DNA from: Ulota crispa
Lineage: Eukaryota; Streptophyta; Bryopsida; Orthotrichales; Orthotrichaceae
Direction: 5' to 3'
NCBI GenBank assembly: GCA_963920765.1
Contig: OY987249.1
Location: forward strand, 2,501 to 66,500
Length of the DNA: 64,000 bases
Shown in pieces: positions 16,661 to 54,292 of this stretch (within the stretch, counting starts at the first letter, position 1; each line of letters opens with the position of its first letter). A model generated the notes under the pieces. It saw nothing but the letters and a program-made list of their open reading frames with translations. It was not told the DNA's origin and did not search any database. A program made the translations under genes and the position numbers.

Positions 16661-17247
16661 GTTGATATAACCAACAAAAAAACAGATTAGTTAGAATGCC
16701 TTATACCATTTTATAATAATTTAAGATGTTGGAATACTAAACAACAAAAGCACAAAATTTCACCAATAACACTCCAACTGAGAGTGAATTACTTCAATTA
16801 TAACGCAATTTTCATTATAATGAGAGTATTGGGACCTCTCAAAATAATATTGGGCGTTTTAAGGGAGAATTATTGAAGCACTTGGGTTCTTATTTAGGTC
16901 CATATTCACTAAATTTACTAGTGTAAAGTAGCAATTTCCATTAAAACAAGAGTTATGCAAGTAATGATCATTGCCCAACAGATTTTTGCATTATATTATA
17001 CTAATATTATTTGTATTTAAGAAACAAATATATACATAATATAATGGAAAATATATTAATATAGTATAAACATTTACAACATGAATATGAATATAAATAC
17101 CATGAACATATAATCAAACTATGTATTTTCAAGTACAAGTGAGTTCAACAAACAAACTTTCAATCTTATATCAAAGCATAAATAAAACATAAATATCACA
17201 CTATCCTATAAAGCTAACTATCCTAGTTAGCTTCAATATAAGCAACG

Positions 17248-20102
17248 CTATGCTTCTGATGAAATGTATGTAGCCAAACTTTGATTAATGACTTCAATTT
17301 GAGTTGGAGGGATTTTGATGAAGCACTTGACGATGTCTTGTCTGATTCTAGATTTCCACGCTATCATCAAAGCATTGGTTTCTTCCCAAAGAGGTGGTTC
17401 ACTTTTGTCCACCTTCCACCGCAAACCTCTTGTAGTATCCCATCCAGTATAGTAATCTTGAACAACTTGATCTCTTGATACTAGACAAAAATACTGAATG
17501 AAGATGCAATTGGGCTTCTCTGGATTTGAGTTAGGGTCAGATAACGCCCTTGCAATCCAAACTAGTTGAGTATCACCATCAGCAGGTCAAATTGCAACAA
17601 AGTAGCCTTCATACAGATCTTGTCCCACTCTGAAGGACGGAAGAAGGCAACCTTGCAAAGGTCCTACATAGGCGTTGTCCTCTGCAAACTCTTCAAGGTC
17701 TTTGCCATCATCTGCAAGTTGATCCTCCAAAATAGCTTGAACTCGAGTAGATGGCCAAAAACCATCTCTCAAAACAATAGAGACAAGTAGAGGTTCTTGC
17801 AATGCTACCTTCACTGCACGCCAATAGTGAACTAAATGCTCATAGCGTCTTTTGTATTCCCCAGTGGCGTCTTCATTGCACAAGTTCTCCCAATATTTTT
17901 GAAACCCAGATAAACCCTTCAGTATGTCATCTATTCCCCTCATCAGGTTTTGAATAACTGCTTTTGGCAACCCATGAGGCCACAAACTCCTCCCCTCTAG
18001 GTCTTCTTTCCATAATTTAATGCCTCTACCATCATCTCCTAACCACTCCAAATCAATGCATAGAAGTTTATACTTCATAATTGGACATCCACTTGAGTCA
18101 AGGTAGAACTTGACTTGTTGTGGTTTTGTGTGTCCAACCAAGGTTTCATCACCGTTGTTAAACTTACCAACAATGAAACCTTTGAAATCCGGCACTTCTT
18201 CTATAAGATGAGGAATGGTGGGAGTACTTTCTACATCCATGAAAGATTTCATGAGAGCAAGAATTGTTGGAAAGTTCTCCTTCCTCAAGAGCATGCTCCA
18301 TCTTCCAAGCAGTGCGTCGATGTCGTCATGTGTGTGACCAACTATCATGAAATTAACATAGACCTCACATAATATCTTGTTTTCAACAAGGAGGGACCAA
18401 AAACAAAAAACATACCTATTCTTATTGTCGCCTGTGGCATTGTCCATTTGCACATGGGGAATAGGTGGCAAAAGTGTTATTAGAACTAAGGTGATTGGTG
18501 GTGGCAGTAGCGATGTTATGCACATCTTTGCACCACTAAGCACCACAGCAAACAAAGGCAATGTCCTCGATCCTATAAACAACTCCCTCAAAGAAGACTT
18601 TGGTGGCAACTCCAATTCTTGCAGCAATTTAACCATGGAGCTGATGGTGTAATTTGAATCATGGGAGAAGAAATCCAAACCATAATGTGCATACCAAACA
18701 TCACCATGACCATGTGCAATCATGCCAGTGACAGACACGGGCAACTTCATAAGACCATCTAGGTCTTTACTCTTGTGCAAGAACATCAAAGAAGCCGTTT
18801 TTGCATGATCCATCTTGTCATGCATGATTGTCAAGATTTCATGCGGAAATGCATGTGACCAATATCGGTTTGTGTAATACCACTCTTTGTGTGCACGAGC
18901 ATTTGCCCAATGCTTGTCCAATTTCTGTTGACACTTCAATGCTTGATGAGATCTTGCAATAGCTCCCTTCAGAAGTGCATCAAGTTTATCACAAGTAGAA
19001 CACCGAGAAAAATTATCCCCAGGTCTCTTCACCTTGTACTCGGCAAAGCTTGCTGATATGATCTTGCTCAAGTTTGAGGTTGAAACATCCTTTAATCCAA
19101 AAGCGGCGTTAGCATTGTTGATAGTTGACATGACACCCTTCCATTGAAATGAAGTCGGAAGAACTCGAGACACCACCTTCTCTCCAGATTTGAGAGTCTT
19201 AGTACAATGTGGCATATGATCTGCGCTGTTATCTAAAATGCACTTCAAAGCAGCGGTGGCTTGCAAGGTGTGCTTCCTTGGTTTTAGTAGCCCAGAGTTC
19301 CCATGGGCAATGCTTGGCGGCCTTGGTGAGCATAAGTTTGATAACGGTAGAATGTGGCCTCCGAGACGGCAGCAATATGCATCCACGCTCGCAAACAAAC
19401 GTTTATGCCTTCAATTGTGACCACCCTTCTCCCGTGCCCTTTGTAGTGAACTTGCTTGTGAACGTCAGTCTTCATGTGGGACCTAAACTTGAATGTGGTT
19501 TGGTGGTACATTTGATGGCAGAAAGCTCAAATCTTCTCCCTTGGAAATAGCTGGATGCCATTCATAGAACAACATTCTTTGCTAGAGCAAGAATTGACGG
19601 ACTCTTGAGTAAGAAGATCTTTGGCTTTGAGAGAGGACTCACATGCCGACTTCCTGATTGTGCTTGCATATGGTCAAGCAGACGTCAATGAACAAGGACT
19701 AAGGATGCTGGATTGTAAACGTCTAAAATTGTCACGTGCCTTGTGGTCACGGAGACTAGCACCATGGCAATGGACTAGAGAGATAGGCCAAGCTAGAAAG
19801 GAGTAAATATCTACTTTGGGTATGTCCACTTCCAAATGAGTCCTGCAAATGTGAATAGCTACATGGGTGTCGCCTGAAGGACCGTTGGCACCAAGGACCA
19901 AATCCAAGTCCACACTATGGCAAGTACCCTTGCCAATAAGGAGATCCTAATTGTTGTAGAGTGTAACAGGCCGTGTATTCCACAAACGATGAGGAAGACC
20001 TTCGCATTTCGGTATTCCAACACTCATTTCCTCTAGAACATGAAGATTGTCATCAGAGGAGTCCATGTTGTCAGTGAAAGCCGCTAGAGAATTGAAGTCA
20101 CC
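17248..20102 (-). pseudogene. DUF7869-type transposon gene, broken
   Basis: The frame starts after an acceptor at about 20103 and runs to TAG at 17248. The C-terminal part has the DUF7869-like core: LDNATGDNKNRY-type motif (here QMDNATGDNKNRYVF), FMIVGHTHDDIDALLGRWS, an upstream TIMHDKMDHAKTAS, and a CSTCDKL cysteine pair. This acidic DNAT.D / HTHDDID / MDH pattern resembles an RNase H-like transposase or integrase core, but that is inference. Breaks: TAG at 19947, TGA at 19674, TGA at 19527, a one-base frameshift near 19310-19330 just before HGNSGLLKPR, and TGA at 17587, after which the frame continues to ALSDPNSNPEKPNC and TGWDTTRGLRW. The long open part (17587-19398) has no natural ATG. 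Its upstream region holds the palindromic motif array. Confidence 0.8.
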
Positions 20103-20163
20103 TGCACATTCAAAGAAATTGAATAATGTAAGAGAGATAGAGCATGATTAGATGATCCCTAAC

Positions 20164-21288
20164 CAGATTGACTCAATCTGAATTTCATCAAGAAAGGGAC
20201 AGATTGGGACCAGTTAATATGAAAGGATAATGCTGCACACATCAATTGAGGTTAAAATTACTGATTGAGAAAATGCACTCTTGTACATCTGGATAACGAA
20301 ATGCCCATTTCACAAAGTAGAATAGTAAATCCAAAGGGGTCTTGATATCATTTGGATCGACTCAAGCTAAATGAAATTGAAATTGATGTTGAAATTATTC
20401 ACATGCCAGAATACTCATCACATAGATTATTTTGTTTTCATTGCAAGTGATACATATAAATCTCATCATACATCCATACAATCAATGAACAAGAAAGAGC
20501 ACCGTCAAACCGTGCTGACCATGCGCAATACATTTAGGTCAACACAAGCTAAACTGCATTTATATTGATCATTCCAGTAAACACGATAAATTATTTTATT
20601 TTGTAGACCAGAGAAACTGTCCGTATTGAACACCGTGGTTAAATTTATATTCAGATCAATTTGATCTAAATTGACTCACCATCAGAATGACTACTATAAG
20701 TGTCCCAACATAACGCCTATATATAACTTGATAACGTGTTGGTCTAAGTACATCAGTAAATGAATTAGGCTGCCTCGCTCTATATTCCTACAATGGATAC
20801 ACCAGCAATGTTTGCATATCCTAGGGAAATGTCACTCATGCATAGGGGTTCAGGCCCAAATATAGGTGCCCTACAAAACAGAGTTGTGAAGTAAAATTCA
20901 AGAATTTGGATGACTATTTAGGTCAAATCAATCTAAATAGTTTGTAACGCAAATGATATGAAGGTGCCGCAACAATGAGTTTTCTGGTATGATTTGAGAC
21001 TTTGAATGGCTGTTTAGCTTGACTTGATCTAAATGGTTGTTGAATCAAATGACATGAAGGAGCCTCAACAAACACTGACAGTCATCAAGCAAGGTTTGGA
21101 AGTGCGGACGACTATTTAGGTCAACTTGATCTAATTATAATTTTAAATAAATAGTATGAAGGTCCATAAATAGTGACAGTTGTCCAGTAAGATTTGAGAG
21201 ATCGGATAACTGTTTAGGTCAACTCGATCTAAACGGTTGCTGGATCAAAAGGAATCAACTATTGATAATTAGATCGAGTCGACTTGAT
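20164..21288. promoter_or_regulatory. Palindromic 21-bp motif array upstream of the DUF7869 gene
   Basis: Nine copies of an odd palindrome (arms like TTTAGRTCRA and TYGATCTAAA around one base) start near 20164, 20351, 20533, 20651, 20918, 21013, 21115, 21213 and 21270. The copy at 21213-21233 is close to consensus. From 20900 to 21240 the motif sits in a diverged tandem repeat of about 97 bp that also contains ATGAAGGTGCC and TTTGAGA. Position is immediately 5' of the minus-strand DUF7869 gene. Role as a binding site is inferred from the dyad symmetry and repetition. Confidence 0.75.
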
Positions 21289-22389
21289 TATCAATCCGGT
21301 TATTGCGGACCTTCTCGGTTTTCCCAATGTACATGTAGATCTTGCAGTCATTGCTTCGGGATTTACAACGACAAATGCGTTGTGTTACGAAAAGACAACG
21401 GATGTAATACAAAGAAAACATGGTACTGATCAAATCGTCGTTCAAAGTTTGAGGAGTTCAAACAGCATGTATTAGTAACATGAAAGATAGAGAAGACTGT
21501 ACAAATGAAATGGTACAATTGCCACAGGAAAGTTTGTTATCCTTAGAACTCTAACGTGGAAGTGGAATGTTTGCGAATTCATCAATTGAACAATACGAAG
21601 TTGGAATGTTATACCAAAATCTTAAAGCGCTTCCTCAAACAATTTGTCATCAACAGTCCTACACTTCAAACACTCAAAGATGACTCTAGAGAAGATCGTA
21701 AACAGACATCTCTCCCTCACTTGATGACTAGAAGTTCAAACAAAAAAAAATGACTCCAACTAAACTAGACATAGACAGCACTGAATGATGGGGGGGAGAA
21801 TTTGAGAGAGAGCTTTTGGCGGGAAAGAGAAGGCGTGAACTATGAAGCACAGGTTCAAATTTGCACCAATAATGCAAAAGTCGTGGCACATGGCCGTTAC
21901 TTAGAATGCCTTTACACTTGAACCTTCAGAAGATGCCATACAAAGGCCAACGCATTAAAGGCAGTCTGCGCTAGTTTTGTACTTGTCCTATTTCTGAAGA
22001 TTTTGGATCACTGTACAACAAAATCCAATGACCTATTCTTGCATTAGAAGTTGCATAATATAGGTTTTGGTGGCATATTATAGTCACGCAACTTTTGCTT
22101 CATTTCTTCTGCTGTTTTTAACCAATCAAAAGTACAACTTTCTTAGGCATGTTTGCTGTACTTCATGAATTGAAGATCCTCCAACAAGAAAAAGTGGTAA
22201 TTAAAGGGTTGCAAGGTTTCCAGTTAGGGTTAGGGTACGTGATTCAATGTCTTAGGATTTAGGGTTTAGGGTCTACGAAAAACCCTTCACTTGTAAAGGA
22301 TTGAGCCATTTCTTCATTGAAAATCACTCTTGACTGCCACTTTTTGGGGGGGGTTTGTAAGAAGAAGGTTTTTTTTTTTAACTGGGAAA

Positions 22390-23610
22390 TCCAATTGTTG
22401 GATCTTACCCTAGAGTGGATTCAAGTTCTTGTGCAAAAAAAACAAGGTCATTCCATTTGGAGTTGAGTGACATAATTACATGAAAAGTGAAAAGACAAGT
22501 CTTTTTAAACCCTACCACAAATTCGCAAAAGCCGTTGACCACTTGTATAACAAAAATTTGCCGTATCCAAAGTTTGGTTTTTTTCCCCTCAATCAAGGAT
22601 ATCAAGTTAGGTATGTGTGGGAGAATTTTCAAATGACATGGAACTACACAAGACATGCAAAAAATCAGTAAGTAAAATGAAGTAGAGAATGGGTGAAATC
22701 ACTAAATTCTTAAGAATTTAATTATTAAATTTTAAATTGTAAATCCTAATGGTCATAATGTTGTCATAAGCAATGTACTTCCTTTGGATTAATTTATTTT
22801 CCAAAATAATGAAAATTGAGTAAAATAAAGGACTTCATTGGTTTTTGGGGAAATTACAAATAGGGGCTTGGAAAACAATATTACATATAGGGGTGCAGTT
22901 TCAAAATAATTACGTATAGGGGCATGATTTCGAACAAAATTAAAAGTTTTTGTACTAGTTTTTTTTTGGTCTGAACATTGGGTTGATTTAGATACATCAC
23001 ATTAATTGTTAGGTATTTTCTGAAAAACTTAAAGGTCTACCCAAATCAAGCTTCAACAATTTTGATAAAATAGATGGCAATTTTATGAAACTTGTACATT
23101 TTTGGAAAATTAGCTAACATTTAATGTCTTGTACTTAAATCAACCAATGTCAAAACAAAAAAACATTGCAAAAACTTACAAATTTGTTTGAAATCGTGCC
23201 CTTATTTGTAACTGTTTTGAAAATGTGCCCCTAATTTTCTGTAATATTGTTTTCATGCCCCTATTTGTAGTTTCCCCAAGTTTCTTCTAGAGTAGAGAAT
23301 CCATAACTGCCCACAAACAAAAACTCGTCATAACTTTGATCTCATTGATTGAAATTGAATGTTTCAAAGCTTCTCACCTATAAAAATATCTAAACAACCA
23401 ATTACAATTTTTTTTTAAATTAATTCATTAAGAAGTTCTTGAGATGCCCATGCGGACAGTCCTATCAAAATTTTCATGATTTCATGCATAATTTCTTCGT
23501 CAAATGTGAAAATTAAGAAAAATTTAGATGCCCACATAGATCTTTGAATTCCCCAGCTTTGACAAAAGTTTCAAAAATAACACACAATAGCGTAGCAAAA
23601 GGTGCATGCT
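22390..23610 (-). mobile_element. Degraded MITE family A copy, reverse orientation, interrupted by a second MITE
   Basis: Reversed family A landmarks appear on both sides of a nested element: GTGTGGGAGAATTTTCAAATG and a fragment like the GTAAGTAAAATGAAGTAGAGA stretch on the left, then TCTAGAGTAGAGAATCC, CATAACTTTGATCTCATTGA and the TTCAAAGCTTCTCACC stretch on the right. The TTAA ends are not clearly preserved. This copy is older or more worn than those at 1518 and 49375. Confidence 0.6.
22847..23277. mobile_element. 431-bp foldback MITE with ~95-bp inverted ends, nested in a family A copy
   Basis: Both ends begin GGGGAAAYTACAAATAGGGG reading inward, and the inverted match continues for roughly 95 bp through AAAACAATATTACA and CGATTTCRAACAAA. 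The inside carries a recurring TAGGGGC spaced about 40 bp. It interrupts the reversed family A copy between GACTTCATT and TCTAGAGTAG, so it inserted later. No target duplication is clear to me. Confidence 0.85.
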
Positions 23611-26600
23611 TGAACCCTCACCTGTCCATCGGAGGGACAACAGCCTTGTGAGTGAAAATATGAAAATATGAAAAACATGTAGAGGTTCAATACAACATCA
23701 TGGAATGTGTATTTCTAGTAGTTAATGGGTATTGTTATGTTTTCTCTTCTAAATTTAATAAAGTGTACACTATGTAGCATTCAAATTTTTTTTGGACCTC
23801 TTCTTCACATAGTTTCACATTATTCATTACAAATAGTAACATACTATACACATGAAAATTGAATAGTTTTATTGGTCCTCCAATTTCAAAGTATTAGTAG
23901 AGAAATTAAGGTTCTAGTCTAAATTAAGCAAAGAATGGCAATGATGAAAAGTGGTCACTGACTCACCAATTTGGAATTAAAATATTTGTAGTAATCATGA
24001 CTTAGTATTTTTTACTACCTCAACTTCAATCTATTAATAATTGAAGTAGTAAATGTTTTTGAGCCCTACAAAAAGGTTTAGGGTCATTTTCAAATTTCAA
24101 TGAGAATGCTAACTATGCATTGCATTCCAAGGAACTAATGTGGAAGTCATTTTTATGGATTGAAGTATTTGTACAATTTTTGAATCTAGTCATGTCATAG
24201 AATACAATAAGAAAAATATAGATACTATTCACCATATTTTAACAATAACGTGCAATTCACAACCAATTGATAGAAATAAATTTTCACATTTATGAAGTGT
24301 TGCATTCAATGAATTAAATTTTGAAGAAGTTGTTTATTGGTTCATTCCCTTGTATGATGCAGTTTATAAGAGCATGTGTGGAAATTGAGAATTTTAGTTC
24401 CATTTTGAGATGGTTTTCTCTCCTTCAATTCTTGAAATGAAATGCTCATTTCTGTGTGTGTGGGTTTTTTAATTTCATTTACAATGACATTCTTTAGGAG
24501 ATTCATGCAATTCTCATCTATGTGCAATTGAATTTAGTTTACGGTACCGTCATGAATGTAATCAATTCACTTTTGGAGTATCTGTTCTGTTGTTTAGGGT
24601 TCCCCAAAGGTAAAATAAATTTACAAAAAAGCACATTTAAAAATAAAAGTGCATAATCCAATGTATACCAATATTATTACTATAATGTTTTTTTTTTTTT
24701 GTAATTTTGAACACAAAGTTCATGAAATGCAATTGTATTTTTTTATATATACTTCCAGCAATGAAAATTCGTAAATAACATTCCATGTAAGTATGTTGTT
24801 CTTGTAAGGTTGTTTTTTTTTATAAACCCTAATCACTATGAATAAGGAATTTCTAAGATGTTGAATGTGTTACAAATGATTATATCCTACATGAACTGAA
24901 TTGTTTAACACCGTCTTATTTTGAAACACATAACATAATAGTACTCTTGTTTGGTGGTTGCTATGTATTGCCACATGTTATGTTTGTAATGTATTTTTTT
25001 TTCATTGTTTGTTAGCTTGACTAAAAGCAATGAAATTGCAATTTCCATTTGTTTATTAGTGTAAAAATACATAATTATGGGTACAGTCTTCTCTTATGTA
25101 GAATCATATATATATGCATGTCATTTATGATTTCTATTTTATACAGATACAGACATTGAGTTCCATAAGTACAAAAGACACACATGCTGACATTTGTTTC
25201 TTTCATTAATATACACCGCAATGAAACATAGTATGATACTTATAGTCAACAATTAGATTTCACTTATTATGCACATCATACTACATGATTATAATTCAGC
25301 ATTCATGCTTTATTGGAAAACATTGAATTTAATACAAAATGTTCTTGGTTTACACGTTCTTTTTTGTACAACAATGTTGAAGCATTAGTGATATGGTAAG
25401 TCATTACAAAAATTGTGACTCATCAATCTTGATGTAATAGTATTACTCTAAATCATAAGTATCATATGAACCCATTTAAAAAATGCCCTTTAATTGTTCA
25501 TTTTCATTTCTTTTATTGCATTTGAGCATTGATCTTATAATCTTCTAAAATAGTTGAACTTCTCGATTGAAACGAAAGTAATGCATAGGATAAGGACATT
25601 GCTATGTACAACATATTATGGTTCATTTCCATATAAATGACTCATCTTGTTTTGAACTTCATCCTTCCTTAATTTTCAAATTGGAGGTCCAAAACACCTT
25701 CAAAGTGAGGGACATTTTTACAACATCAAGGAAATAAGAAAGCCCCAAACAAGCATCAAAAACATATTTCAATCATTAGGAATTAAGAAATCTCAATATG
25801 TGGTTTGGATTCAAAGAACTTGTGCAATTATTGGATATGAAGGATTTTGTACTTCCTTCATTTCGAGCGTAAACAAAAAATTCTAAAAGCATATGAAGAA
25901 AATAATTGCTATATATATATATATCCTTTTACCATAAATCTTTTGTTAGTGAATGCACAACATTGGAAAACTAAATTTATATGTATTCTTAATCTTTGAA
26001 TGCTAGAGCTATCCTTTAATATTCATGTATATTAATATTGAAATACGTAATGCTTATCAACCCATTCAGGGTAACATGCAAATCCATTAATAAAAATATC
26101 TTGCACAAAAAAATCTACACAAAATTCATGTGTACATTTCATCATTAAGACAATGTAATTTCACAAAATCATATGTAAAGCTCTCTCAAACAATGCATAA
26201 TTATGTTCATGTTACTTTTGTTCATACAATAATTAAAATGAAATATGGAACAGTATAGTGATAAAATTCACATGAAGCCCATATTTGGCCAAACATATAC
26301 TCTTCATTCAATTAGTCTATAACATATACCCTACAACTAAGGAATAATATTAGTTTGCTAAACACCTTCAATCCATTTATTATTGAAGGTACAACAATTC
26401 TAAAAATCATAAAACATATTTGAAATCAAATCTTAAAGCGTTCATCATGCAGAATATGTGATATTCATTTCTATACGTAGAAAGGTTAATTTCCCTTCAA
26501 TAAATTGCTTTCAATTTAAAATCTATGTTATGCACCATATATTGTATTAATGAACAATAATTTTTAATATAGATTTGACAAAAATATGACTATATGAGCC

Positions 26601-27488
26601 ATTCATCTTCCATGTCAGTAAGCTTTATAGAGAATATGATTTTCATAAATTTATTGTTTCAAATAGCCTGGGGATTTAAAAACTAAACATTCATTTTAAT
26701 GGATTTGAATAAATTCCCATAATTACTATGATATTTTAGTATGCATGACATATTTTTAATTCATTTGGGATGTTGCTTGAATCCCTTCACAAATATTGAA
26801 ATAGCAATGTGGCAAGTAGAACCTCTTTATTGTAAGAAATTTTACACAATTTGCAATTCAATACACTTATTTCAATACTTACTTTAAATGAAGCAATTGC
26901 TAATGCCACACCCAAAAAGTACTAATGCCACTCTCCAAGTAGTGCTTCAGAAGTGCTTTTAGCACTATATTACAGAATGCCATGCTTCATTTTTTTCATT
27001 ACTTATCAAAGAATTTGTTTCACCTCTTTCATTCTGAGACTACATTCAACAACATTAGAAGTGCTCAAATTTTTATCTAAACATAAAAATGTTTGAATTA
27101 CTTTAACAAAAAACAGATGAAAATAATAGCAATGGTGCAATAAAAACTCAACATTATGGTACATTCTCACTTGGTGTTAGGAAAAGTATTAGCTGTATGA
27201 ATGTAGTTCAAAGGTGCGTCCAAATACATCTAATTTTTCTCTACTAATACCCCTTCTAACACCAAGTGTGAATGTACCATTACCCTTTACTTCATCTTCT
27301 TTCTTTAAGGAGGTGGTAATGCCGTCATTGAATGAATGATGGACCATCAAATTAATCAAATTTTACATTATATTCAGAAAAATCTAGGTCTTGCAGATGT
27401 GGCGGTAGGACTTTTTGGTGTGGCCTAAACCCCATATCGTCATTGGAGACATAAATTGTCTTTGAACATTTCTCAGGTTAAACTTTTT
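23611..27488. other. Very AT-rich interval, no gene seen
   Basis: Nearly 4 kb of AT-rich sequence with an (AT)n run at 25911-25924 and only short chance open frames. No exon-like composition, no palindromic motif copies. It separates the two motif-bearing gene regions and may be old nested insertions too worn to recognise. Confidence 0.6.
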
Positions 27489-27992
27489 GGAAAATATAAA
27501 AAACAACCCTCAATTAAAAAAATAATTAAATGCACCCCTATAGTATTTGAAATATAAAAAATAGCCCTACATTTGTGTAGTAAAATCATTTATACCCCTA
27601 CTTAGTTATCTTTGAGAACATCATTAGTATTCATAGTTTTTGCGCCTCTTTACAACATTTTTTTTTATCAACATGACAGCAACAATTACTGTGTAATTAT
27701 TGCAACAGCTTTGACCAAAACACACTTACATGCAAACAACCTATTTAGAGCTTCAAGAGCTTGCTTCTAAGATTTGGCTTGCTTTCAATTTACATCTAAT
27801 TTTTGTACTTTCCATTATCAACCAAGTGTTTACACAAATTTGCAAAAACACACACAAGAGAGTTAGGGAAAATAATTATAAAACAAACAATATAAGGGTA
27901 TATTTGATGTTTCATAATAATTGAGGGTCCCAAAGAACTAGGGGTGTAATTGGTTTTATAACAAAAAGCCAAGGGTATTTTTGATATTTTCC
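27489..27992. mobile_element. ~500-bp MITE with GGAAAATAT inverted ends
   Basis: Left end GGAAAATATAAAAAACAACCCT, right end (reverse complement) GGAAAATATCAAAAATACCC; the inverted similarity runs about 90 bp and includes ACCCCTA/TAGGGGT words spaced along each arm, as in the element at 22847. No coding capacity. The MITE at 28007 begins within 15 bases of its right end. Confidence 0.75.
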
Positions 27993-28006
27993 CTTACATT
28001 AAATTG

Positions 28007-28593
28007 TAACCCCAAAAATCTATTCTATGTAGATTACATTTTTTGATAACTTCTTTTTTAAGTATACTTTTAGCTTCAACAATCTCATGTTGCACATGAT
28101 TAGTTATGATTTCTTTATTCAAGATTTTGTGCTTGGGTGTTCATTGCAATCTTCATTGCATGTAGTGTTGAGGGCTCTTGGAAATGAGCCCCTATTACAC
28201 TAGACCTTTTAGAGAAACAAAGTTAGAAATCTATTTCTAAAATTTAGAGAGTACATTTTGAGAAGCCATAAATTGGTTGGAGCTATGCATGTTACGCTTT
28301 TTAACCTTATAGTTTTTTGGTGACCACCTTTTTAGAGTTGGCATGTAAAAATAAGATTGAAAGACTTCAAATCACTTTGATAGTTTTCACACCTCATGAT
28401 CAAACATTATAATCTTTCAATCCATAAGAGATATTGTTTTTTTTTTCTCTAATGTGATCTGTAACATGTCTGGTTTGATTTCATACGGTAACAATTCAAA
28501 AACATTGATACAACTCATGAAAATGTTGGCTTTTAGTTCAAATTATAGGAAATTCCTACAAGACCCAGAAATGCAATGTTACTTTGGGGTTAA
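28007..28593. mobile_element. MITE family B, copy 2
   Basis: Starts TAACCCCAAAA and ends TTTGGGGTTAAC. The interior aligns with 8323-8981 through CATTGCAATCTT, GTGTTGAG(G/A)GCTCTTGGAAA, ATTGAAAGACTTCAA and TATAATCTTTCAATCCATA. It is about 70 bp shorter than copy 1 and has lost the CCCAAGGCA subterminal arms. Confidence 0.75.
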
Positions 28594-28639
28594 CAATTCC
28601 TTTAATTCCATGAAATTTAGCATACGCCATGTGCCCAAG

Positions 28640-30443
28640 CCGGGTATGGCAGGGTTGAACAACAACAGTACTGGCGGATGTAGGGTCCGGGTATCAAGAA
28701 TTAGGTCCGGGCATGGCTAGTTTGATGGGAAGGTCGGCGGCGGAGCTAGGGTTTCACTTTGTTCTTGCGCTTGTTTCCACAACGTTTGTTGTTGCTGCGC
28801 TTTTGTGTGTTTGCTTTTTTCTTGCTTTTTGTTTGTTTTTGTTCTCTTCTTCTGTTCTTTTGCATTGTTCTGTTGTTTTCCTTCTCCGTGTGGTTTTGCT
28901 GTGGGAGAAGCACCTTCTATTGGAGCGCAGGTTCACTACAGAAATACACGTGCTTTTGGAGAGGAAATTTTGCGTTGAAAGTGTTTTGGGCGGTGTTTTT
29001 GTGTGAGTGAGCAACGGAACTTAGGGTTGTTTGCAGTGCGGTATAGGTATCTCATTATGTTTGTGCAAGCGCTTTTTTTCTTGTGTGCTTTGAAATTGCA
29101 AGCAATTCATTTGTCTTTGTTTGCACTAGATTTCTCTTTCATTTTATTGTGTTTCTTGTCCATTCGTGCATCAGGCAGCAAGAGCACGTTGTGAGGTGTC
29201 TTTTTTGGTAATTCCTGTCCTAGTAGCACATGCGGGGGCATTTTTTGGATTTCTTTTCACGTCCCAGCATCATTTTGTGGGGTACTTTTGTTTGCACTTG
29301 AAGTTGCAGCAGCACCTCTTGGGGTTTTTTTTTTTTTGTACTTGATGTTGCTGCAGCGTTGTGGAGGTGTTCTCTTGACCCAAAAGCCAAATAATTTACA
29401 GATCCTCATTTCATGTGCAGGTGAATGTTTGCAATTTGTAGTTTTTTGTTAGTTTGTTGTTGCATTCTAAGTTAAAGATGAAAATTAGGGTTTAGATGCA
29501 TACATTGTGTTTGTTAATTAAACTCCAATTGCTTGAATTCTTGTGTAATTTTGTAAAGCATGAATTCAGAGAGGGCTATTGAGAATTTTAGGGTTTTGCT
29601 AAGGAATCTGTAGCAAAGATTTGAGTTCAAAGTCTGGGTCAATTTAGATCAATGTGAGTTTAGATCAATGGAAGTTCAGGTCATAGACGTTGCAGATTGA
29701 TGATAGTTTAGATCAACGTAACTTTAGATCGATGTTAATTTAGATCAATGATACTGTAGGTCAATGTTGATTTAGATCAAGAATGGTGAAGATTTGCCAG
29801 AATGCACATGAACGGCTACACTTGCATAGACAAAAGCAGATGTCATTTCAGGTCGACCGAACCTAAAATGACGTCTGGAAATCTGTAAACCTGAATGACA
29901 ATGTAAACATACCTTCCAGAAGTGGTAGTATGAAGCAAATTAGCTTGTGTTGAGTTAAAACCATATCTACAACTCTGAAATAGACAAACTCCATGAAGTA
30001 CAAAATGATCAAATCAGATGGTAGGAATGACCGATACGGTAATTATATGCAAAACGTCTAATTGGTCCATACCAAATGCCACAGACTCATACCAACACAA
30101 ACAACAATTTAGATTGACTTGATCTAAATTGAACGAGTATCATGGACAACTCTTGTACTAAACAATAGGATAGCTATGCAATAGTATAATTGCCAAAAAT
30201 ACACAAACTCCACTAGAATTTACATCTAGAGAGATCAAAGAATGAGCAAATACACCTACTCCACAGAACCAGATTAGCTCAACTCGAGCTAACTGCATCT
30301 TCAGACAATGATGCAAACAAGGTAAAGCACCAGCGTAAATTCAAAATGAATAACTGATACAAGGTGGAACGTCACATGGGAACATCAAATTAGATCGAGT
30401 TGATCTGAATGACAAAATGCTGATTTCCTCAAATGTAAATAGG
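28640..30443 (+). promoter_or_regulatory. Leader/upstream region of the ParB-like gene with motif copies and half-sites
   Basis: GC content rises from about 28640 and the text changes to exon/leader-like sequence (28700-29330) with open frames in several phases but no recognisable protein. From 29641 to 29785 at least seven half-sites of the form TTTAGATCAA are arrayed; full palindromes follow near 29846, 30108, 30274 and 30391. A splice acceptor-like TAAATAG precedes the likely ATG at 30444. It reads as promoter plus 5' untranslated exons and introns. Confidence 0.5.
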
Positions 30444-31901
30444 ATGGAAGAACAGAAGGCGCGATTGAACTCCTGCTTCAAGTTATTAGAGAACCGTCTC
30501 ATCAAAGATGATGGAGATGACTTCAGCAAAGACAACAACTTCTAGGAGTTCCAGATCCCAAAGAAGGTGGAGGGCTGGAGTTTGAGTCTTATACCAATGA
30601 TTGACAACTTCTGCTTCACCACCAAGTACAATAAGAACCCGATTTTCTTCCCAGTATCATTGGACAAGGTGGAAGAAGTAATGCAGGACATGGGCAGCTT
30701 CATCAAAGTCCATTGCGTGACCACAGATTCTAGTATTCCTGAGAAGGATCAATACCACTTCACGATCTTTTTCGACTCTAAGAAAATCCCATTCAGCATC
30801 TCGGAATGCATGAAATCATTGGAGCCGACGGAGTACAGGATTGGCATTCCCAAGCTTGAGAAGAGAGTTGACAACAAGGCCTACGTCACTAAGGACGGAA
30901 ATCCGCTAAGTGGGCAAGCGTTGTGCTGTAAGTTGCATCAGCTCTTCGTTGATTTTGGTGAGTTCAAAACCCGGATTGAACTGGGGAAGAAGCAAACGGC
31001 CGGTTTTAGCGTGTCCCTCTCCAATGCCAGCCAGGGAGAGGGCCAAGAAGCTGCGGGACCTAACAGAGTAGCGAGTCAAGCTAGTGTTAGGATTTGAAAG
31101 AAGAAAATGGCAGCAACGCCACCCGCATCAAGACGTGCATCAACAAGCAAGAGAAGCGTTATGGGTTTTGCGTTTGCTCAAAAGCAGGCGGCCAAAAACA
31201 AGGAGGTCCCCACTGTAGGCAATGACAATTTCGCTTCTGCCATCATCAACGTTCTAGCAGCGTGGAATCCAAATAAGGCTCCTGACTACAAGAGGTTGTC
31301 AGAAGCGTACACAGCGTATTGGGCACACTGCACAAACGTTTACATCTACAAGATTGGCGACAAGAAAGAGATTCCTATTGAATAGTTGGTCGAGGCTCCT
31401 GCACACCTGAACATCCAAGTGCAGGAGGACAGGATTGTCAGGGACATGATGTGGTTCTTGATGCACATGCCCAACAAGTCCACGAAGCAGACATTGTGCG
31501 TCATGCCCATCATGCCGGAAGGTAACACTGTGAAGCTGGGAGCGTGGGAGACCATCAAGGATATGGACTTCTACCTCATCAATGGGCAACATAGTGTCGC
31601 GGCCAGTAAACTAATGGTGGAGGAGAACATTGACAAAGAGATAGTGAAGCACTTCTAGAAGTGGGATTGCTACGTTGTGTGGACCACGGACCATGAGACG
31701 CTTTGTGTGATCTCCCCATACTACAATCGAGTGAACCACTTCACGGCAAGAAAACCTTTGTGGTCCACAAACATTATTGGAGCGCGAGAAGTGTGGGAGG
31801 AGATGGGTAGGCCACGCAATCCAAGGGAAGCCACAGCAATTGGCACATCATCAAATGCTCGGAGATCCCAAGAAAACACGGCAAATGGCATTAAATGGAA
31901 G

Positions 31902-32181
31902 GTATGCACTTCAGGTTGACTCAACTTGAATCAACTTACTTCTATCAATGCTCATTAGATGTGGATAGAATATCAATCACCTTCATCCGATCTAAATCCG
32001 CCTACTTACTTTAGTGGTTTCTCATTCAAGCATACTTGCAATTCAGGTTGACTCAATCTAAAACACCATACTGGTTGGAATGCTTAATTATACGATTAAT
32101 TGACAGTTCAGGTCGACTCGACTTGATTTGCATCTGTTAAGTGGAATGACATCTCCTTTGCACATTCAAAAATTCAACTAG
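31902..32181 (+). promoter_or_regulatory. Intron 1 of the ParB-like gene with three palindromic motifs
   Basis: A 280-bp intron (GTATGC...ACTAG) that contains motif copies starting near 31910, 32042 and 32107. The first begins eight bases after the splice donor. The flanking exons hold no copies. Confidence 0.7.
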
Positions 32182-33522
32182 GAAATGAACACGCATTTCT
32201 CCCAACTCGATGTGGTCAAGTCACAGAAGAGCACCACAAGGAAAGACGCCAATGAGAAGGTGAAGCTTGTTAACAAGCTCAAGATTATATCCGCTCCCGA
32301 TGATATTTTCAACCTCTAGAGTGAGGTCCTCAGCAGAGCCACACACAGGGAGCTCATTGACCTTGACACGTTGATGAAATTCAACAAGAAAAAAGGATGG
32401 AAGCCCAAGTAGCAACTCATCACTTGTGAATTCTTCAAGTGGTTTGGGAACCTCTCCATTGCCGACTTTGGGAAGCTGGCAAAGCATATCCTCAACCTTG
32501 ATAGTGAGAAGAGGATCCAGGAGTACCCAAAAGTGACAATACGACAAGCATCGTTAGTCCATGAAAGCTGCTACATAGCCAAAGAGTGGGCTAAATGGCG
32601 TAAGCGGAAGCAACTTGTCAAGAGAGAGCTCCACAAGATTGACCGGAGCTTGGAGCTGCTCAACGTGGCCGAGGAGCTCAACATTGAGAAATGGAGGGAA
32701 TTCAAGAGGAGTCGCAACATTACAAGTGCGACTATGAATACTCTGTTGGAGCTTCCTAGGGAAGAGTACTACCCAAAAGCAAAGCATCCAAGATCCAAGT
32801 TCAAGAGGGCAAACGAGATCTCACCTTATGTGGCGAAGTTCTTCCACCTCTTTCTCCTGCGCAAAAAGAACTTTGTTCCCACCACAATGAAGGCGCACTT
32901 CCGGCCATACAATATTATGGCCAGCAAGCATTTGCAGTGGCCTCTTGAAGCATGGAGAACAAACACCATGGAAGACATCAGGATCGGAATAATCAATTTC
33001 CGATACCTTCCAGGTGTCCTAAAGAAAGGCAAGAACTCCTTTGGTACGCCATATTTCTACAACGTCCTGAAGGCATTCTAGGAGAAGAAGCAGCTGTTGC
33101 TTGAAGAGATCCCCATGTGGTTGTTAATTTGCTTGGATATGATTGAGCAGACACAGGCGCTAAACTATGTGGAGACAAATGAAGTTCTCAAGTCGTTCAA
33201 GCAGGACTTCTTTGATTACTATCCGGGAGATTATGATCAATTGAGGGTCTACTTGGCAGGACATGCAAAGTCCAAGCAAAAGGTGTTGCTGATGTTCCTA
33301 TAGAATACGAACTATTGATCGCTGCAGACTGTTAAACTGGCTTACAAAGCCCCCAACATGCCGATGTTCACCAAGACCTGCGGGTATAATGAGCTAGAGT
33401 ACCGGATCCATAATACGGAGCTGCGGATGGAGTTTTACATTGCCATATTGTGGAGATTTAGCATCCTTGGGATGAACATCTTCTTGTTGTATGCCGGCGC
33501 AAAAGCTACATGCGCTGCTCTG

Positions 33523-33892
33523 GTAAGTCCATTTTAGCTTGACTCGATCTGAATTGTCATATTGGTTAATTGATTGCTTACTTAATAGATAGTTTCAATA
33601 GCATTTGTCACTTAGATTGACCCAATCTGAAATGCTTCATACATATATCGTCAAATCCATATATAATCCAAATGATTCAAGTCAATCCGACCTGAATCAA
33701 GTGAATCATTGTAATGCACCTTAGCTTCAAATTGACAGTTCAAATATCCGTTTAGATCGACCCAATTTGAACTGTTAAGTTCATTCTTAGAACCTTATCA
33801 TAGGTTGGTATGTTCACGTGGTCATTTAGATTGACCCAATCTAAACTGCAGGTTACCTGTGTTGATTGTTTTCCATGATTCATGCAATGCAG
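33523..33892 (+). promoter_or_regulatory. Intron 2 of the ParB-like gene with five palindromic motifs
   Basis: A 370-bp intron (GTAAGT...TGCAG). Motif copies start near 33533, 33612, 33676, 33751 and 33826, about 64-79 bp apart, so the intron is little more than a motif array. Copies near 35091 and 36625 follow later exons. Confidence 0.75.
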
Positions 33893-35289
33893 ATATGTGG
33901 AATGCATTGTTATGCGGTGGGGCCAAAAGAGGAGCGAGATCAGTGGACAGATATAGCAAAGTCTGCCGAGATTCTAGATAGGGAGGATTTTTTGCACAAG
34001 GAGTATAGAGTCAATGAGGATGACTTCAGCAAGAATCTGATGTATATCGACACACCTTCAACATCAAAAAGAGGCAAGAAATCCGTCTAGGACACCGTGT
34101 GTACGTCGTCCAAATAGCGTAATTCTTCCACAGCTCCCTCTTTTGACAATTACCGTGCTGATCTTAGCTTGGGGGATGACAACAACACAGACGACTTGAA
34201 CAACAACTCTACACGGAGGAGCATCAGACTCCAGCTGCAAACTTGTCTCAAGAGTTTCTCACTCCAACGACAAGGTCGTTGCCGCTCATAGCCAGGTCTT
34301 CTGCGTCCTCCCAGCAACCATGTTTGGAGCAACATCCAAACACACCGCCTACTACCTCTTCGCCTACAACAAAGAGGAAAGGAACCGTCAACAACTTCAA
34401 GGAGATGATAGCAGATATGGAGGAAAAATGGCAAAGTGATAGGGCTTTCTACCCAAAGATGGCCAATCAGGAGTTCGATAGAATGGACTCCTTCCAATCA
34501 TTCATAGAGATGGAGTCCAAAAACAACAAAGCCATGTGGGCGGCAATGTCATCACAAATTCAAGGGGTCCGGCCAATTGCTTCATTCTTGCCGCCTACCC
34601 TTGATCATTTGTTTCTCATCCAGCATACAGGAGCAGGGTTGCAATTCAGCCTGCCGGCATTGATGCAAGCTCCTTCTGCCTTTGCTCCCGTATATCAAGC
34701 TGCCCCTCTTCCAGTGCAAGTTCTTGTTTCCCCCGTAGCTCCTCCTATGCAAGTTGAAGGTCAACTTGCTGCTCCTCCTGTCGCCGTCTCATCGATTGAG
34801 CCTCCTGCACCTGCCGTCTTTGCCAGCACTCTTCTAGCCCCTCCTCTCCCACCAAAGGACCCGATCCCAAATCCTCCTCCTTCGTCTTCACAAGCCAAGA
34901 ATCCACTTGTAGCAGATGCAGCGATCAAAGATTGCATGACATCCGACGTTGTAGTCAACATTGGAAACGAAGAGGAAGTCAGCTATGACGCCATTGACAA
35001 GATCGATGGGAATCAATCTCCAGCCAAACGAGATTCCGGTGCAGGTTAATCCCACAATTGCTCAATGTCAATTGTGCAGTTTTAGCTCAACTCGAGCTGA
35101 TTTGTATAGCACTTTGTATGTAGCCTTAGGCACTTTGTAAGTAGCAACGTATTTTTGAATACCACAGCATGTACTGAGAAGAATCCATAGAGGTCTGACA
35201 ATTTAGACTCAATTTTGTAAATTATTCTCATTACCCAAGCCACTTGAATAAAAGTTCCTCACAGACTATTTTCTTGTGCGATTATGACT

Positions 35290-36512
35290 GGGAGGCCCTA
35301 TTTCTATTGAATGTGTGCCTTTATCCCCCGGTTTGCCAAGTATAAGAACTCACCCGCCTTCTCCTACTCTTGCTCATGTTGATGTCATCCAGCCAATTTT
35401 GGATGAAGACCAAGATTCATAATACTCGCTGCTGCAATGTGTTAGTCCAAAGTCTATTGTCTTTGTTGGCGTGCAACCAGATATTGCCGATCTTCATCCG
35501 GTTGGTGCTGCACTAAATATTGCTGCGCATTCCACTAAGTCACCAAATTGCCAGGTAGGATGTTCTTCTCTTTTTTGCAGTTCATGAACTTTAACTCTTG
35601 TTGGAACCCAATGAACTTTGTAAGGGAATTTGCTCAAAGAGTTGTGTTTCCAACTTATAATTCCACTGTTAGTGTGTCATTGTAATTGGCTGCGCATTTG
35701 TACGTTGGGCAGTAGGATCCCAACCCTCCATGCGCGAGTGGAGGAACATTGGAGGCCGTCGCTTGTCCATTGAGGTTTAGAGCAACGAAGAAGTGGCTGC
35801 ACGTCATCCTAGACTTGAATGGCATTTTATGTGACAACAAAGATGCCAAGTCCAAGGGCTGGCGTAGACCCCTTGGAAGCATTGTTCAACCGCACTCTAC
35901 CAGGATTCCTGCCATCGTAGGAACCAAAGCAGTGTTTGTCCGGCCACATTGCCCACAATTCCTTGAAAAGTTGTTTAGAATCGCCCATGTCGCATGGAGC
36001 TCAATGCTCAAATCCAACACTCAACGGATATCCAACTTCTTTTTTAGGGATCAAAATATGCCTTGGCTCATTTTTGGGCAGGAATCTTGCACAATGCTAA
36101 AGTGCAAGGATACTCATGGCAACATAACAACTTACAAACTACCTAGAACAGACAAGCAACTATTCCTAAAAAATCTTGATGAGTTGTTTGAAGCCTATGG
36201 TGGGATGTATACATCCGCCAATACCATCATAGTCAACGATAGCTTGCTTAAACACATAATGAACCCTCCAAACAATGTCATCCTCCTAGACACTTGGTTG
36301 CACACGGGAAATGGTATGCGTGACAAGTTTCTACTAAACATCTTGCTTCCCTACATTGGAAGCCTGCACATAGCTCAAGATGACGGGTTGCAGGCTTTTC
36401 GGGAAAACACTTCATCAAGGGTAGGGCGCCGAATGCTCTACAAAGAACGTGGCCATTGAGAGTACAACAAAATGATGGAGATCATGCATGTTTCTGCCGG
36501 ACTGAGTTAGTG
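35290..36512 (+). pseudogene. FCP1/NIF-like (HAD) phosphatase domain gene or exons, broken
   Basis: An exon of about 35290-35552 (open except TAA at 35420, donor GTAGGA) and one from about 35713 to 36512. The second encodes an FCP1-homology fold: HVILDLNGILCD at the catalytic loop, VFVRPHCPQFLEKLF and VAWSSMLKSN (motif 2 with WSS), and NTIIVNDSLLKHIMNPPNN before ILLDTWLH. The normal nucleophile motif is DxDxT/V; here it reads DLNGI, so the second Asp is missing and catalysis is doubtful, as in other divergent FCP1-like proteins. TGA at 36457 is followed by 17 more open codons to TAG. It may be the 3' part of the ParB-like gene or a separate gene on the same element. Confidence 0.65.
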
Positions 36513-36921
36513 CAGGCTAAATAGATTGGCTTGAGTTGTTTTGTACGTTCAGCATTATAGGCATTTGAGCTTGAGGTATTTAGCTTGCATTGATATGATA
36601 TGCTCTTAGTTGACCACTGCTTCATTTTAGGTTGGGTCGAGCTGTTTGGCAGGTTATATAATATACATGTTTTTTGTTATTTAGTTTGCATCAATATGAT
36701 CTGAACATATGAATAATACATCACATTTCCTCATATCATGTAAAAACTCTTCAACATGAAATGGAAGATCACATTTTATGACTGTCATCTTTTTTTTGCT
36801 GTCATTACCTGCTCTAGTTTATTATTGCTTGCATGATTCTTGTTGTCTTCATACACCTTCATGTTTGCAAATTCATTAGTTGTTTCTTTGCTTAAACTTT
36901 TGTGCATGAAATTCTTTTCAG

Positions 36922-37482
36922 ATCCTCCCGGCCTTCACTTCTTGTGTTTTCAAAGCTAGCCTGCCCTCTCTAGCATCCGTAGATTCCATCATGGACTATG
37001 GACAATACGCTATCCTCAGTACTGGGAACTTCCTATGCTCCGTTGTTATTGCTAATTCCACCATGGACTTCTCTACATAGCTCATGGATGACGCTGCGAT
37101 GGACAGTCCACCAAGTCAAGGAATTGGTCCCACAACCATTTGTTCACCTTCTCCTCTCCGGTCCAAAGGCCCTGTTATTTCTCGGATGTCGCCGTTGGCA
37201 TCTGACAAACTCACCCAACGGAAACTGTACAATGACACAGTGGAATCCTCTCTCCCTATGCCTTTGAAGCCCATGGTGCTAGATGGAAGGTGCGGAGCAA
37301 TGCTTGCTGTTCATCTTGTTCCCAAATTGTTTCCTCCTCCCCGTGCCTCATCTCAAGGTGTGCAGATGACCAAGACACGTGATGCAAGTCCTTGCACTCT
37401 TGGCGCTACTCATTTTTCAAAGGCCTGGGATCAAAAATGCAAGCAAATACAAAGGATGGAGATGGAACGACAGTACGGGTGA
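36922..37482 (+). pseudogene. Further exon downstream of the FCP1-like domain, unknown product
   Basis: A good acceptor (CTTTTCAG) precedes 36922. The frame is open to TGA at 37480 apart from TAG at 37078. The product is rich in Ser, Pro and Met (SPSPLRSKGPVISRMSP) and ends in a charged KAWDQKCKQIQRMEMERQ stretch. I do not recognise it. Composition and the CAG-type nonsense match the exons upstream, so it is probably the last exon of the same transcription unit. Confidence 0.5.
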
Positions 37483-38389
37483 TGGATGGTCACAAATATA
37501 GTCGAGGGCCAGCGATTTGGAAGGCAATGCAGCACCTCAAAAGCAAATCCCATGTTTGATAACTGTGCATATTTAGAGGGAGCTCACTCTCTCTATGCAA
37601 ATAGGGTGGTCTCATCTTTGTCATGTTTTATACGTATAGTAGTATACATCTATACAGGGTCCCCATGTGTAGGTGTTTCATAGAATTGTATGATGTTGCA
37701 TATATTACCCACTACACGACTTGTACATTCTCCACATTCATATCCATGATGGCCATGGATTATGGAACCTCTGATTTGACTAACTATATTATATAGTGAA
37801 TATCCATACGTCTGAGGGTTAGAGCATTAGAAATCATGCTTTCTTCCCATTCCTAATAGCAAATTATATCTTGTTTGGACATGGACCTCCATTACTCCCT
37901 GCCATTTTTAGGAGGAGAGTTGACAGTGGATGACGTGGACAAATTGAATAGCAAACTTTGTCGCATTTTCCATTTATAGATTATCCACATGTACATTCAA
38001 TGACTCTTTTATACAAATTGCTACAGTACTTGCTGGTAATGCATGATATTTAAAATTTCCGCACTTGTAAAATTGTTGTTTTTATCATTGCATTCATTAC
38101 ATTGTATGTGTAGGTAATAGATTCTCTTCAATTCATGGTATGAAGTGCTTTTAGGTACTCTCATTTCAATGGAATACTCTCATTATATTGAATATTGTGT
38201 TTTATCAAGTAATTTAATATGTTCTTGACCTGCTGAGCTATTGCTCTTTGATAGAAACACACAAACCAAGACTCTTGTTCCAAGTTTCTACCAACTTTTT
38301 TGTTGTCTTAATTAGTGTTTCATAGTATGAAATGAAGTATGACAGAAGAAAATAACAAATGTTGATAACTATAGACTGCCAGTGGTTAG

Positions 38390-49297: not shown

Positions 49298-49374
49298 GTT
49301 TGTCATTACCTAATTTCATTTGTTTGTTGCAACAAATGTTGTAGGGACAAAGCCATGTTTAAATGGATAGAAAT

Positions 49375-50306
49375 TTAACCCCTAGAAACTTGAATGTGCC
49401 TTTGGGGGACAAATGGATTTTGGGCACGTACCTATAGCTAAACTATTTTGTGTGATTGTTAGAACTTTTATTGAAGGTGCGGAACTCCAAAACCTACACA
49501 TGCACTTGATTTTTTCTTCATTATGACATTTGACAAACAAGTTATGCAAAAATTTCTTAAGACCAAGGGAAAGAGGGCAATTTGGGCAGCCCAAAAACTT
49601 CTTTAAAAATTGTATTTTTATAAAATGAAAATCTGAAATTGGTTCTTACAAATTTTTTATACATGGGAAGCTTTTAATCATTCAATTTCAATCAATGAGA
49701 TGAAAGTTATGAGATGTTTTAGTTTGTGGGCAATTAAGGATTCTCTACTCTAAAATAAACTTTGAAGTCCTTTAATTTACAAAATTTTCAATATTTTTGA
49801 AAAATTACTAAACCTCAAGAAGTAGATTGTTTATCACAACATTACAGCCATTGGGATTTGCATTTTTCATTTCAAGAATTCAATTCTTAACAAATTAGTG
49901 TTTTGACTCATTCTCTATTTCTTTTAACTTACTATTTTTTCTCATGTGTTGTATAGTTCCAATTGATTTGAAAATTCTCCCACACACATCTAGTTTGGTC
50001 TTCTACATGGAAAAAATAAACCTCAACTTTGCATAGAGCAATTTTTTTGATATAGGAGCGGTCAAAGGCTTCTGAAATTTGTTGGCAATTGGGGAAAATA
50101 CTTTTTTTTTCACTTGTCAACATCTCACTCCTCTACATCTAGAATGAGCTGATTTTTTTGTCACATGTACCTCCCATAGTCTAGAGCAAGATCCTGTGGT
50201 TGGATTTGCAAAATGAACTTTATTTCCTACTTTTCTACTCATTCCCCTCAAAGTGGCAATTTTCAATGATTTTGGCAAAAAAAAGGCTTAGGCCTTTAGA
50301 GGTTAA
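49375..50306. mobile_element. MITE family A, copy 2
   Basis: 932 bp, TTAA-CCCCTAGAA at the left and TTTAGAGG-TTAA at the right. Aligns along its whole length with 1518-2451 (for example TTTGTGTGATT, CATTCAATTTCAATCA, GCCATTGGGATTTGC, ATGTGTTGTATAGTTCCA). Same orientation as copy 1. Confidence 0.8.
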
Positions 50307-50884
50307 GAAAGTTAACGGTGTGCATTTTGAATATCTACTTTAAAGCAAAACAAGTTATCCTTATTCCTCTTTTTATTCTTTTATTTTATGTTTTATTAGT
50401 TTGCTCAAAATTAGTTGATTGAGAATGAGGTCAATTCCTAATTTGCAAATAATTAATAGAACAATATGACCAAGCATGATGTAAAAACAAAACCAATATT
50501 TCAAGAAGTTTGTGTAGACAAAGAACTTGGCCAAATGGAGCAATTGATGGTGACCAATTGTAAAAGGTCATTGGTATTATGACACGATTTGTAAATTTCA
50601 GTACTAATTTTAGATGTTGTTCCAAATGGGGCAAGTAATATCCAATTGAAAATATGTTTTTAGTAGCTTTCTAATGAAAAAGCATGTTGTCAATTTGGTT
50701 TAGAAAAAGATCCTTCTACAGAACTTTGTTATGTTGATGATAATAAGACATTGTGAATTTCAACAAATTTCATATTTATATAACAACAAGCCTATCCTAC
50801 TTCTCCCCTTGTTATTTCTTGCTCACGTGCACTAGTAGAATACGCCTGAAAAATCAATAGAAAAGTAACAAGCTTCTATTGATT

Positions 50885-53800: not shown

Positions 53801-54292
53801 TGAGCAACTGATACTGCACTGCACAGCAAAAACTCTAATATTACCCAACTAGCATACTCTGGTATCACTTACAAACACACTTACACCGACATAAAAGAAC
53901 CATAAATCCGCTTAATTAAACCATCTGAAGCCATGACTTCGACTCAGTCTTACTTGCACACAGCAGTAGTCACACATAACTCCAAAATAAACATACTCAT
54001 ACGCAAAAAAATTGTAACAAGACATACAACTTCTAGCACGTTATACGTACCGGTAATTGCGAACAAATTCCACATACTAGCTCTTAGGCCATACCAAAGA
54101 CAAATGCATTCTCCACCAGAAACACCACTCTCAGAATGTAATGCCATAGTTTTACATTAGCCCCATTTACACAGAGGCTATGGTTTTTCAATACTTCCAA
54201 TTCCTCCACTCGACATAATGAATCCCTATGTTTAAAATTATATGGCACAGGAAAAAAAAAGATACACTTACTCAAGGTCAATGCTCATGGCG
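50885..54292. other. 3' non-transposase part of the CACTA element
   Basis: More balanced base composition than the flanks but no open frame I can assign. A second CACTA gene (TNPA-like) would be expected in this kind of position in some elements; I cannot identify one. Likely 3' untranslated or a decayed second gene. Confidence 0.35.

Follow-up and report, generated by a model that had tools for sequence, protein, structure and literature searches.

A 21-bp palindrome spread over the non-coding DNA of a giant DUF7869-bearing transposon in the moss Ulota crispa

In a 64,000-nucleotide stretch of the moss Ulota crispa (GenBank assembly GCA_963920765.1, contig OY987249.1; C8:2501-66500 in a 274.8-Mb genome), hereafter the window, we analysed a DNA transposon with terminal inverted repeats and a gene for a DUF7869 protein, whose non-coding DNA carries many copies of a 21-bp palindrome. 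The analysis showed the palindrome to be an element-specific, symmetric site that is distributed across non-coding DNA, is conserved and has been kept in the mobile derivatives that were sampled. We give roughly even chances to the proposal that a family of giant DUF7869 (Sola-like) transposons encodes a DNA-binding protein that recognises this site, a protein that would activate or de-silence the element and license its mobilisation.

The window was scanned with the pattern TTYAGVTYRANTYRABCTRAA (20 scored positions), which was derived from an earlier note on this DNA (the original prediction) and from repeats in the window, and is therefore fitted to the window copies. Twenty-one sites scored at least 18/20, all within 20162-35101; at this threshold, neither the 42.6 kb of window sequence on either side of the element nor five first-order Markov shuffles contained any. 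At 17/20 or better the five shuffles gave three matches in total and the window outside the element again gave none, while at 16/20 seven single matches outside the element were close to chance (8-11 per 64 kb at 16 or better in the shuffles). The original prediction of a repeated and confined 21-bp palindrome is thus real, and the groups that it had placed were recovered: nine copies at 20.16-21.29 kb (eight sites of at least 18 and one at 17), four at 29.85-30.41 kb, three and five in successive introns and one near 35.08 kb. Of the single copies placed near 35091 and 36625, the first stands (19/20), whereas those at 36.6 kb are only weak (16-17/20); confinement to 20.1-36.7 kb holds within the window, although the element itself is wider (16802-38201). 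Beyond the original prediction are the ends of the element, its duplication, the half-site array and ∼98-bp units of the window, and the short derivatives that share the site throughout the genome. As had been claimed for recognisable exons, none of the 21 sites overlapped inferred coding sequence, which makes up 8,061 of the 21,400 bp of the element. The absence of sites outside the element did not extend from the window to the genome, where one 20-mer had 452 matches with at most three mismatches, compared with 33 for the reversed control. Exact sites numbered 170 of an A/G class and 201 of a C class genome-wide, and either pattern reversed gave none.

The site led to giant relatives of the element on three other contigs, C1:5861665-5890753 (29.1 kb), C2:33694647-33721408 (26.8 kb) and C5:17268616-17292640 (24.0 kb), with approximate borders taken from DNA alignments, so that some bases may be missing. 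These copies are bounded by ends resembling AACCTCATATTCATTAAAATGGGAG with some mismatches. Of the 4 bases just outside each end, read by eye, three agree between the two sides in the C1 and C5 copies, whereas the C2 copy shows no match. Two further giant copies were seen in part, one from C8:17725001 onward (∼89-91% identical to the C1, C2 and C5 copies) and one from C6:15934001 onward (88-93% identical to the window copy). Another cluster of exact sites, of mixed class, lies at C11:1191384-1207656 (G000) and is possibly a giant copy.

Comparison of these copies revealed that one cluster of sites persists where the DNA around it does not. The DUF7869 DNA of the window copy is ∼70% identical to that of the C1, C2 and C5 copies. 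Cluster I, the group of palindromes upstream of the DUF7869 gene, was aligned with its sites masked among the window, C2 and C5 copies; the window region had no match better than E 0.25 to either of the others, whereas C2 and C5 aligned with each other at ∼90%. A cluster of 7-9 sites is nevertheless kept in the window, C1, C2 and C5 copies, 3.4-5.1 kb from the left end and directly upstream of the DUF7869 gene, and all four have further site groups in the right half. Tandem growth of the sites has used differing units: in the window, a ∼98-bp repeat that carries the last four of the eight strong cluster I sites and the half-site array of period 16, and in the C2 copy a 214-bp unit; at the place corresponding to the window array, the C1, C2 and C5 copies have half-sites spaced 16 or 32 bp apart.

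In all four giant copies the outermost 3.3 kb on the left and 1.4 kb on the right are free of sites scoring at least 18/20. This distribution, upstream of both gene modules, in introns and far from the ends, argues against simple end-binding. It bears on an alternative that we regard as possible but rather doubtful, in which the palindromes serve as an internal enhancer or subterminal site that the DUF7869 transposase binds to bring the ends together, and have no regulatory role. Classical subterminal arrays lie near the ends, unlike the sites of the giant copies. This alternative gains from a nearly invariant set of Cys and His residues in the N-terminal part of the DUF7869 proteins, and from the short derivatives described next.

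The genome contains many short derivatives with ends similar to those of the giant elements: the 20-base end sequence has 2,555 occurrences with at most two mismatches, compared with 3 for the reversed control. The sampled derivatives are ∼240-340 bp long and have one or two sites, beginning ∼80-200 bp from an end. Three samples were drawn. The first was chosen by similarity to a 297-bp stretch that already held sites, so it is not independent; of 842 candidates, 40 were scored (129 matching pieces) and 20 of these were fetched. All 20 had sites of at least 18/20, and 14 had an exact 4-bp duplication. The second was chosen by the site, with 20 loci taken in order along C1 and C2 among ∼50 listed of 170, omitting sites in giant elements and in already known short derivatives. 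All 20 had at least one matching end, 19 had both and 14 had an exact 4-bp duplication. One of them, L065 (339 bp), is a variant whose ends differ somewhat, so more than one derivative family carries the site. The third was chosen by ends alone, from 19 facing pairs of perfect ends among 100 listed matches; one pair already in hand and one pair 2.9 kb apart were omitted, and of the 17 fetched, 16 had a site of at least 18/20 (the remaining one scores 17) and 11 an exact 4-bp duplication. As a yardstick, 92.7 kb outside the four giant elements contains one site, itself within a short derivative. The retention of the site in derivatives indicates that it is important in cis, either to mobility or in giving access to the ends. 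Two short derivatives, L011 (C1:5875493-5875787) and L015 (C2:33708688-33708960), are nested in giant elements, and each adds two sites.

Such insertions are the starting point for a reading without function, in which the palindromes are debris of short-derivative insertions or of hairpin-driven duplications. Short derivatives do insert into the giant copies on C1 and C2, and their palindromes look longer; in these two copies the flanks 11-20 bases out pair slightly more than swapped flanks (p 0.043 in C1, 0.014 in C2; not significant in the window). However, in all four giant copies the pairing of flanks 4-10 bases out did not exceed that of swapped flanks, those 1-3 bases out exceeded the swaps only in C1 (p 0.009) and C2 (p 0.037) and were not significant in the window, and the site cluster outlasts the turnover of its flanks. 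We consider this reading highly improbable.

Next to its persistence, the site is marked by symmetry at one position. With arms swapped among copies as the control, whole-site pairing of the arms gave p 0.034 in the window, 0.085 in C2, 0.30 in C1 and 0.65 in C5, and arm position 6 carried the window pairing (p 0.006). The paired arm variation of the original prediction is therefore clear at position 6 only; over the whole site it is modest in the window and not significant in the other three copies. Among 40 short-derivative loci, 692 of 810 cells were paired against 617.8 in the swap control, driven by positions 3 and 6, a strength that is partly due to descent because the loci mix site families. 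At position 6, exact sites genome-wide were G/G in 132 cases, C/C in 201, A/A in 11, G/A in 27 and G/C in 4 (A/C was left out), and these 4 G/C hybrids compare with ∼161 expected if G and C arms were freely dealt. This shows two symmetric states with rare hybrids; the copies are related by descent, so the counts are not hundreds of independent events. The two classes suggest element lineages whose proteins may read different versions of the site.

Of 192 arms, 184 have CG, TG or CA at positions 8-9, two have TA and six have other pairs, which looks like decay of a presumably methylated CpG. Variation within the arm is lowest at positions 2, 4, 5 and 7, and the bases one to three outside the core favour T, T and G. 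This pattern matters for the idea that a host regulator, for example a WRKY protein, binds the sites. The W-box core of WRKY proteins is TTGAC, and in part of the G/G class GGTCAA...TTGACC can be read as two facing W-boxes. However, the 201 C/C-class sites read GAGC where G/G reads GACC, which leaves no TTGAC in the arm, and arm positions 8-9, which belong to the W-box, are variable, unlike positions 2, 4, 5 and 7. Binding by a host regulator is thus very improbable in our view.

The proteins of the element are the candidate binders. The left-hand gene has an open frame at 17587-19410 (607 amino acids), and DUF7869 is the sole Pfam family found in its protein. Of its 275 relatives, 120 were listed, and among these all organism-named ones come from the mosses Physcomitrium patens and Ceratodon purpureus, with 49-70% identity. 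Five Asp residues are invariant across 32 sequences (355, 424, 460, 546 and 588 of P0001), and Asp 424, 546 and 588 are placed plausibly for an RNase H triad, as expected of the DDD transposases of the Sola superfamily, in a structural model with a mean predicted local distance difference test score (pLDDT) of 67.9, with 424 and 588 in stretches of pLDDT below 50. A core-only model was poor (mean pLDDT 51.1), and a fold search with the DUF7869 model, itself of middling confidence, gave no match.

The right-hand gene is decayed. Its exon borders were inferred by inspection from GT-AG and reading frame, and the nine in-frame stops over its first two exons (30441-33522) comprise seven TAG, two TGA and no TAA, a make-up that suggests C-to-T decay. 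Two relatives of its protein were present in the protein collection, one of them from P. patens (1135 amino acids, 30% identity across half of the query). The protein contains the motif Y-I-x-N-G-Q-H-S, which we take to resemble ParB-type motifs; together with the multiple palindromes, this motif is what would favour a segregation or clustering site like parS, on which a ParB-like protein loads to gather or partition the element. The ParB-like link of the original prediction was not borne out: in Pfam, the right-hand protein pieces and the two relatives matched no ParB family at a limit of E 10 (HMMER filters drop most matches above 0.1), and the resemblance is confined to the short motif. A partition system would also seem needless for a chromosomal transposon, and a parS-like role is in our judgement very unlikely.

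We return to the recognition site of an element-encoded protein. In the proposed mechanism, a protein with two-fold symmetry, presumably a dimer, would bind many sites at once; the candidates are the DUF7869 protein and the right-hand protein. Loading of this dimer on the non-coding DNA would turn on or de-silence the promoters of the element, and the same loading would license mobilisation of any DNA with matching ends and a site, which would explain why derivatives retain one or two. The original prediction had described a dedicated protein-binding site rather than a simple repeat. A dedicated site fits, because the sites outlast turnover around one cluster, avoid the inferred exons and occur in 16 of 17 derivatives picked by their ends, while the binding of a protein is what we infer from them.

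Several points count against a regulatory recognition site. Arm pairing in the C1, C2 and C5 copies was not significantly above swaps, and no single position there reached p <0.04. Around cluster II, the palindromes upstream of the right-hand gene, some DNA did align after masking (best E 8.9e-8), with all hits below E 0.05 at the half-site array. The right-hand protein pieces and the two relatives matched no Pfam family above the cut-off, so no resemblance to VANC was found. The derivatives are too small for genes, and site retention therefore fits a role in transposition at least as well as a regulatory one. Furthermore, the derivative and class counts are non-independent events, as the copies come from few masters, and the analysis covers the sequence of one genome.

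The element is called Sola-like by description and not by transposase homology: 4-bp duplication, terminal repeats, moss host and size fit. The duplicated 4 bases of the elements here vary in sequence. Excerpts of PMC10741241 and PMC9033089 likewise describe Sola elements with terminal repeats and 4-bp duplications, with a moss among the hosts and with known sizes >15 kb; terminal inverted repeats of 11-1124 bp and a size of 2-9 kb for most elements are given in the former, and Sola1 is listed for Physcomitrella in the latter. The window element has TTAT at both ends, and its 25-bp terminal inverted repeats (22/25 identical to each other, by eye) lie within the range of PMC10741241. The giant elements here differ in their size of 21-29 kb, their second gene module and their palindrome array, and the excerpted Sola descriptions in PMC3627910, PMC9033089 and PMC10741241 mention no such array.

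A functional parallel is the VANDAL21 transposon of Arabidopsis. According to an excerpt of PMC5735166, the protein VANC21 binds to a 9-bp motif that occurs in its introns as well as in intergenic and upstream non-coding sequence and removes methylation, and the motif arrays were amplified by tandem repeats. Both systems have an element-specific short motif with many copies in introns and upstream non-coding DNA, tandem growth and lineage-specific versions, and the window element has just such an array in its non-coding DNA. In contrast, the VANC21 motif is arrayed in one orientation (PMC5735166), compared with the 21-bp palindrome here; VANDAL elements are Mutator-like and this one bears DUF7869, and here short derivatives carry sites too. 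No Mutator-like transposase (VANA) was found, as the Pfam scan of the left-hand protein gave only DUF7869, and the target-site duplication of Mutator-like elements is 7-12 bp in the excerpt of PMC10741241, compared with 4 bp here. A VANC-like domain was likewise absent from the Pfam matches of the right-hand protein pieces above cut-off, although no direct comparison with VANC was made.

Other mobile and segregating DNAs offer partial likenesses. En/Spm TnpA sites and Ac/Ds subterminal repeats are found no more than a few hundred bp from the element ends. Like the palindrome, they are repeated element-specific sites, which in those systems are needed for mobility; in contrast, the giant-copy sites here are at least 1.4 kb from the ends. 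A repeated palindromic site is also a feature of ParB-parS systems, whereas here it sits in a chromosomal transposon and no ParB domain was found in the Pfam scan of the right-hand protein.

The features of the element are collected in the table below. Elsewhere in the window, frames matching DUF4216 (below cut-off) and Transposase_21 (tnp2), as in CACTA-like elements, lie at 54422-55300 and 59254-60150, and 50830-53844 shares 94% identity with a stretch situated ∼0.6 kb to the left of the C5 giant element. A dispersed repeat of ∼0.9 kb occurs three times (1515-2451; 22294-23642, in pieces; 49370-50307) and is also present inside giant elements on C1, C2, C5 and C8. Near the beginning of contig C8, where the first 600 bases are N, a 148-bp stretch is present in two overlapping copies (window 234-519; 98% identical).

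Table. Features of the giant element, in window positions
Feature	Position	Strand	Basis and remarks
Whole element, DUF7869-bearing terminal-inverted-repeat DNA transposon	16802..38201	.	21,400 bp; terminal repeats and 4-bp duplication, giant relatives
Left target-site duplication, TTAT	16798..16801	.	Read by eye from sequence
Left terminal inverted repeat, AACGCAATTTTCATTATAATGAGAG	16802..16826	+	19/25 match to end sequence AACCTCATATTCATTAAAATGGGAG
DUF7869 gene, probable transposase	17272..20066	-	PF25273, E 3.2e-38; extent by DNA homology to C1, C2 and C5 copies
Site cluster I	20162..21288	.	8 palindromes of at least 18/20 and one at 17; upstream of DUF7869 gene
Half-site tandem array, TTTAGATCAATGNNNN	29643..29780	+	Period 16, 8.6 copies; Tandem Repeats Finder (TRF) score 81
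Site cluster II	29847..30409	.	4 palindromes, upstream of right-hand gene; scan
Right-hand gene, exon 1	30441..31903	+	Decayed; in-frame TAG, TGA, TAG, TAG; sequence/translation, relatives P0121 and P0122
Intron 1 palindromes	31910..32127	.	3 sites
Right-hand gene, exon 2	32182..33522	+	Decayed; 4 TAG and 1 TGA in frame
Intron 2 palindromes	33533..33845	.	5 sites
Right-hand gene, exon 3 region	33893..35049	+	Broken; start and open frame 34180-35049 in different frames
Lone palindrome	35081..35101	.	19/20
NLI-interacting-factor-like phosphatase frame	35716..36459	+	PF03031, E 3.7e-11
Weak site copies	36579..36705	.	16-17/20
Right terminal inverted repeat, CTCTCATTATATTGAATATTGTGTT on + strand	38177..38201	-	19/25 match to end sequence AACCTCATATTCATTAAAATGGGAG
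Right target-site duplication, TTAT	38202..38205	.	Read by eye from sequence

As a tentative extension, these giant Sola-like moss transposons may possess an anti-silencing and licensing system independent of VANC, in which one element-encoded dimer reads a palindromic code; the code would have changed between its G/G and C/C versions during lineage divergence, and numerous short elements would have been carried along through the site and the ends. If element proteins do read the palindrome, mosses would provide a second, unrelated example of a transposon escaping silencing by marking its own non-coding DNA, together with a natural experiment in which the site exists in two symmetric versions and natural mini-substrates are plentiful. 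For DUF7869, a domain of unknown function, the analysis makes a concrete claim, namely that it probably acts as transposase in a family of giant elements that make 4-bp target-site duplications.

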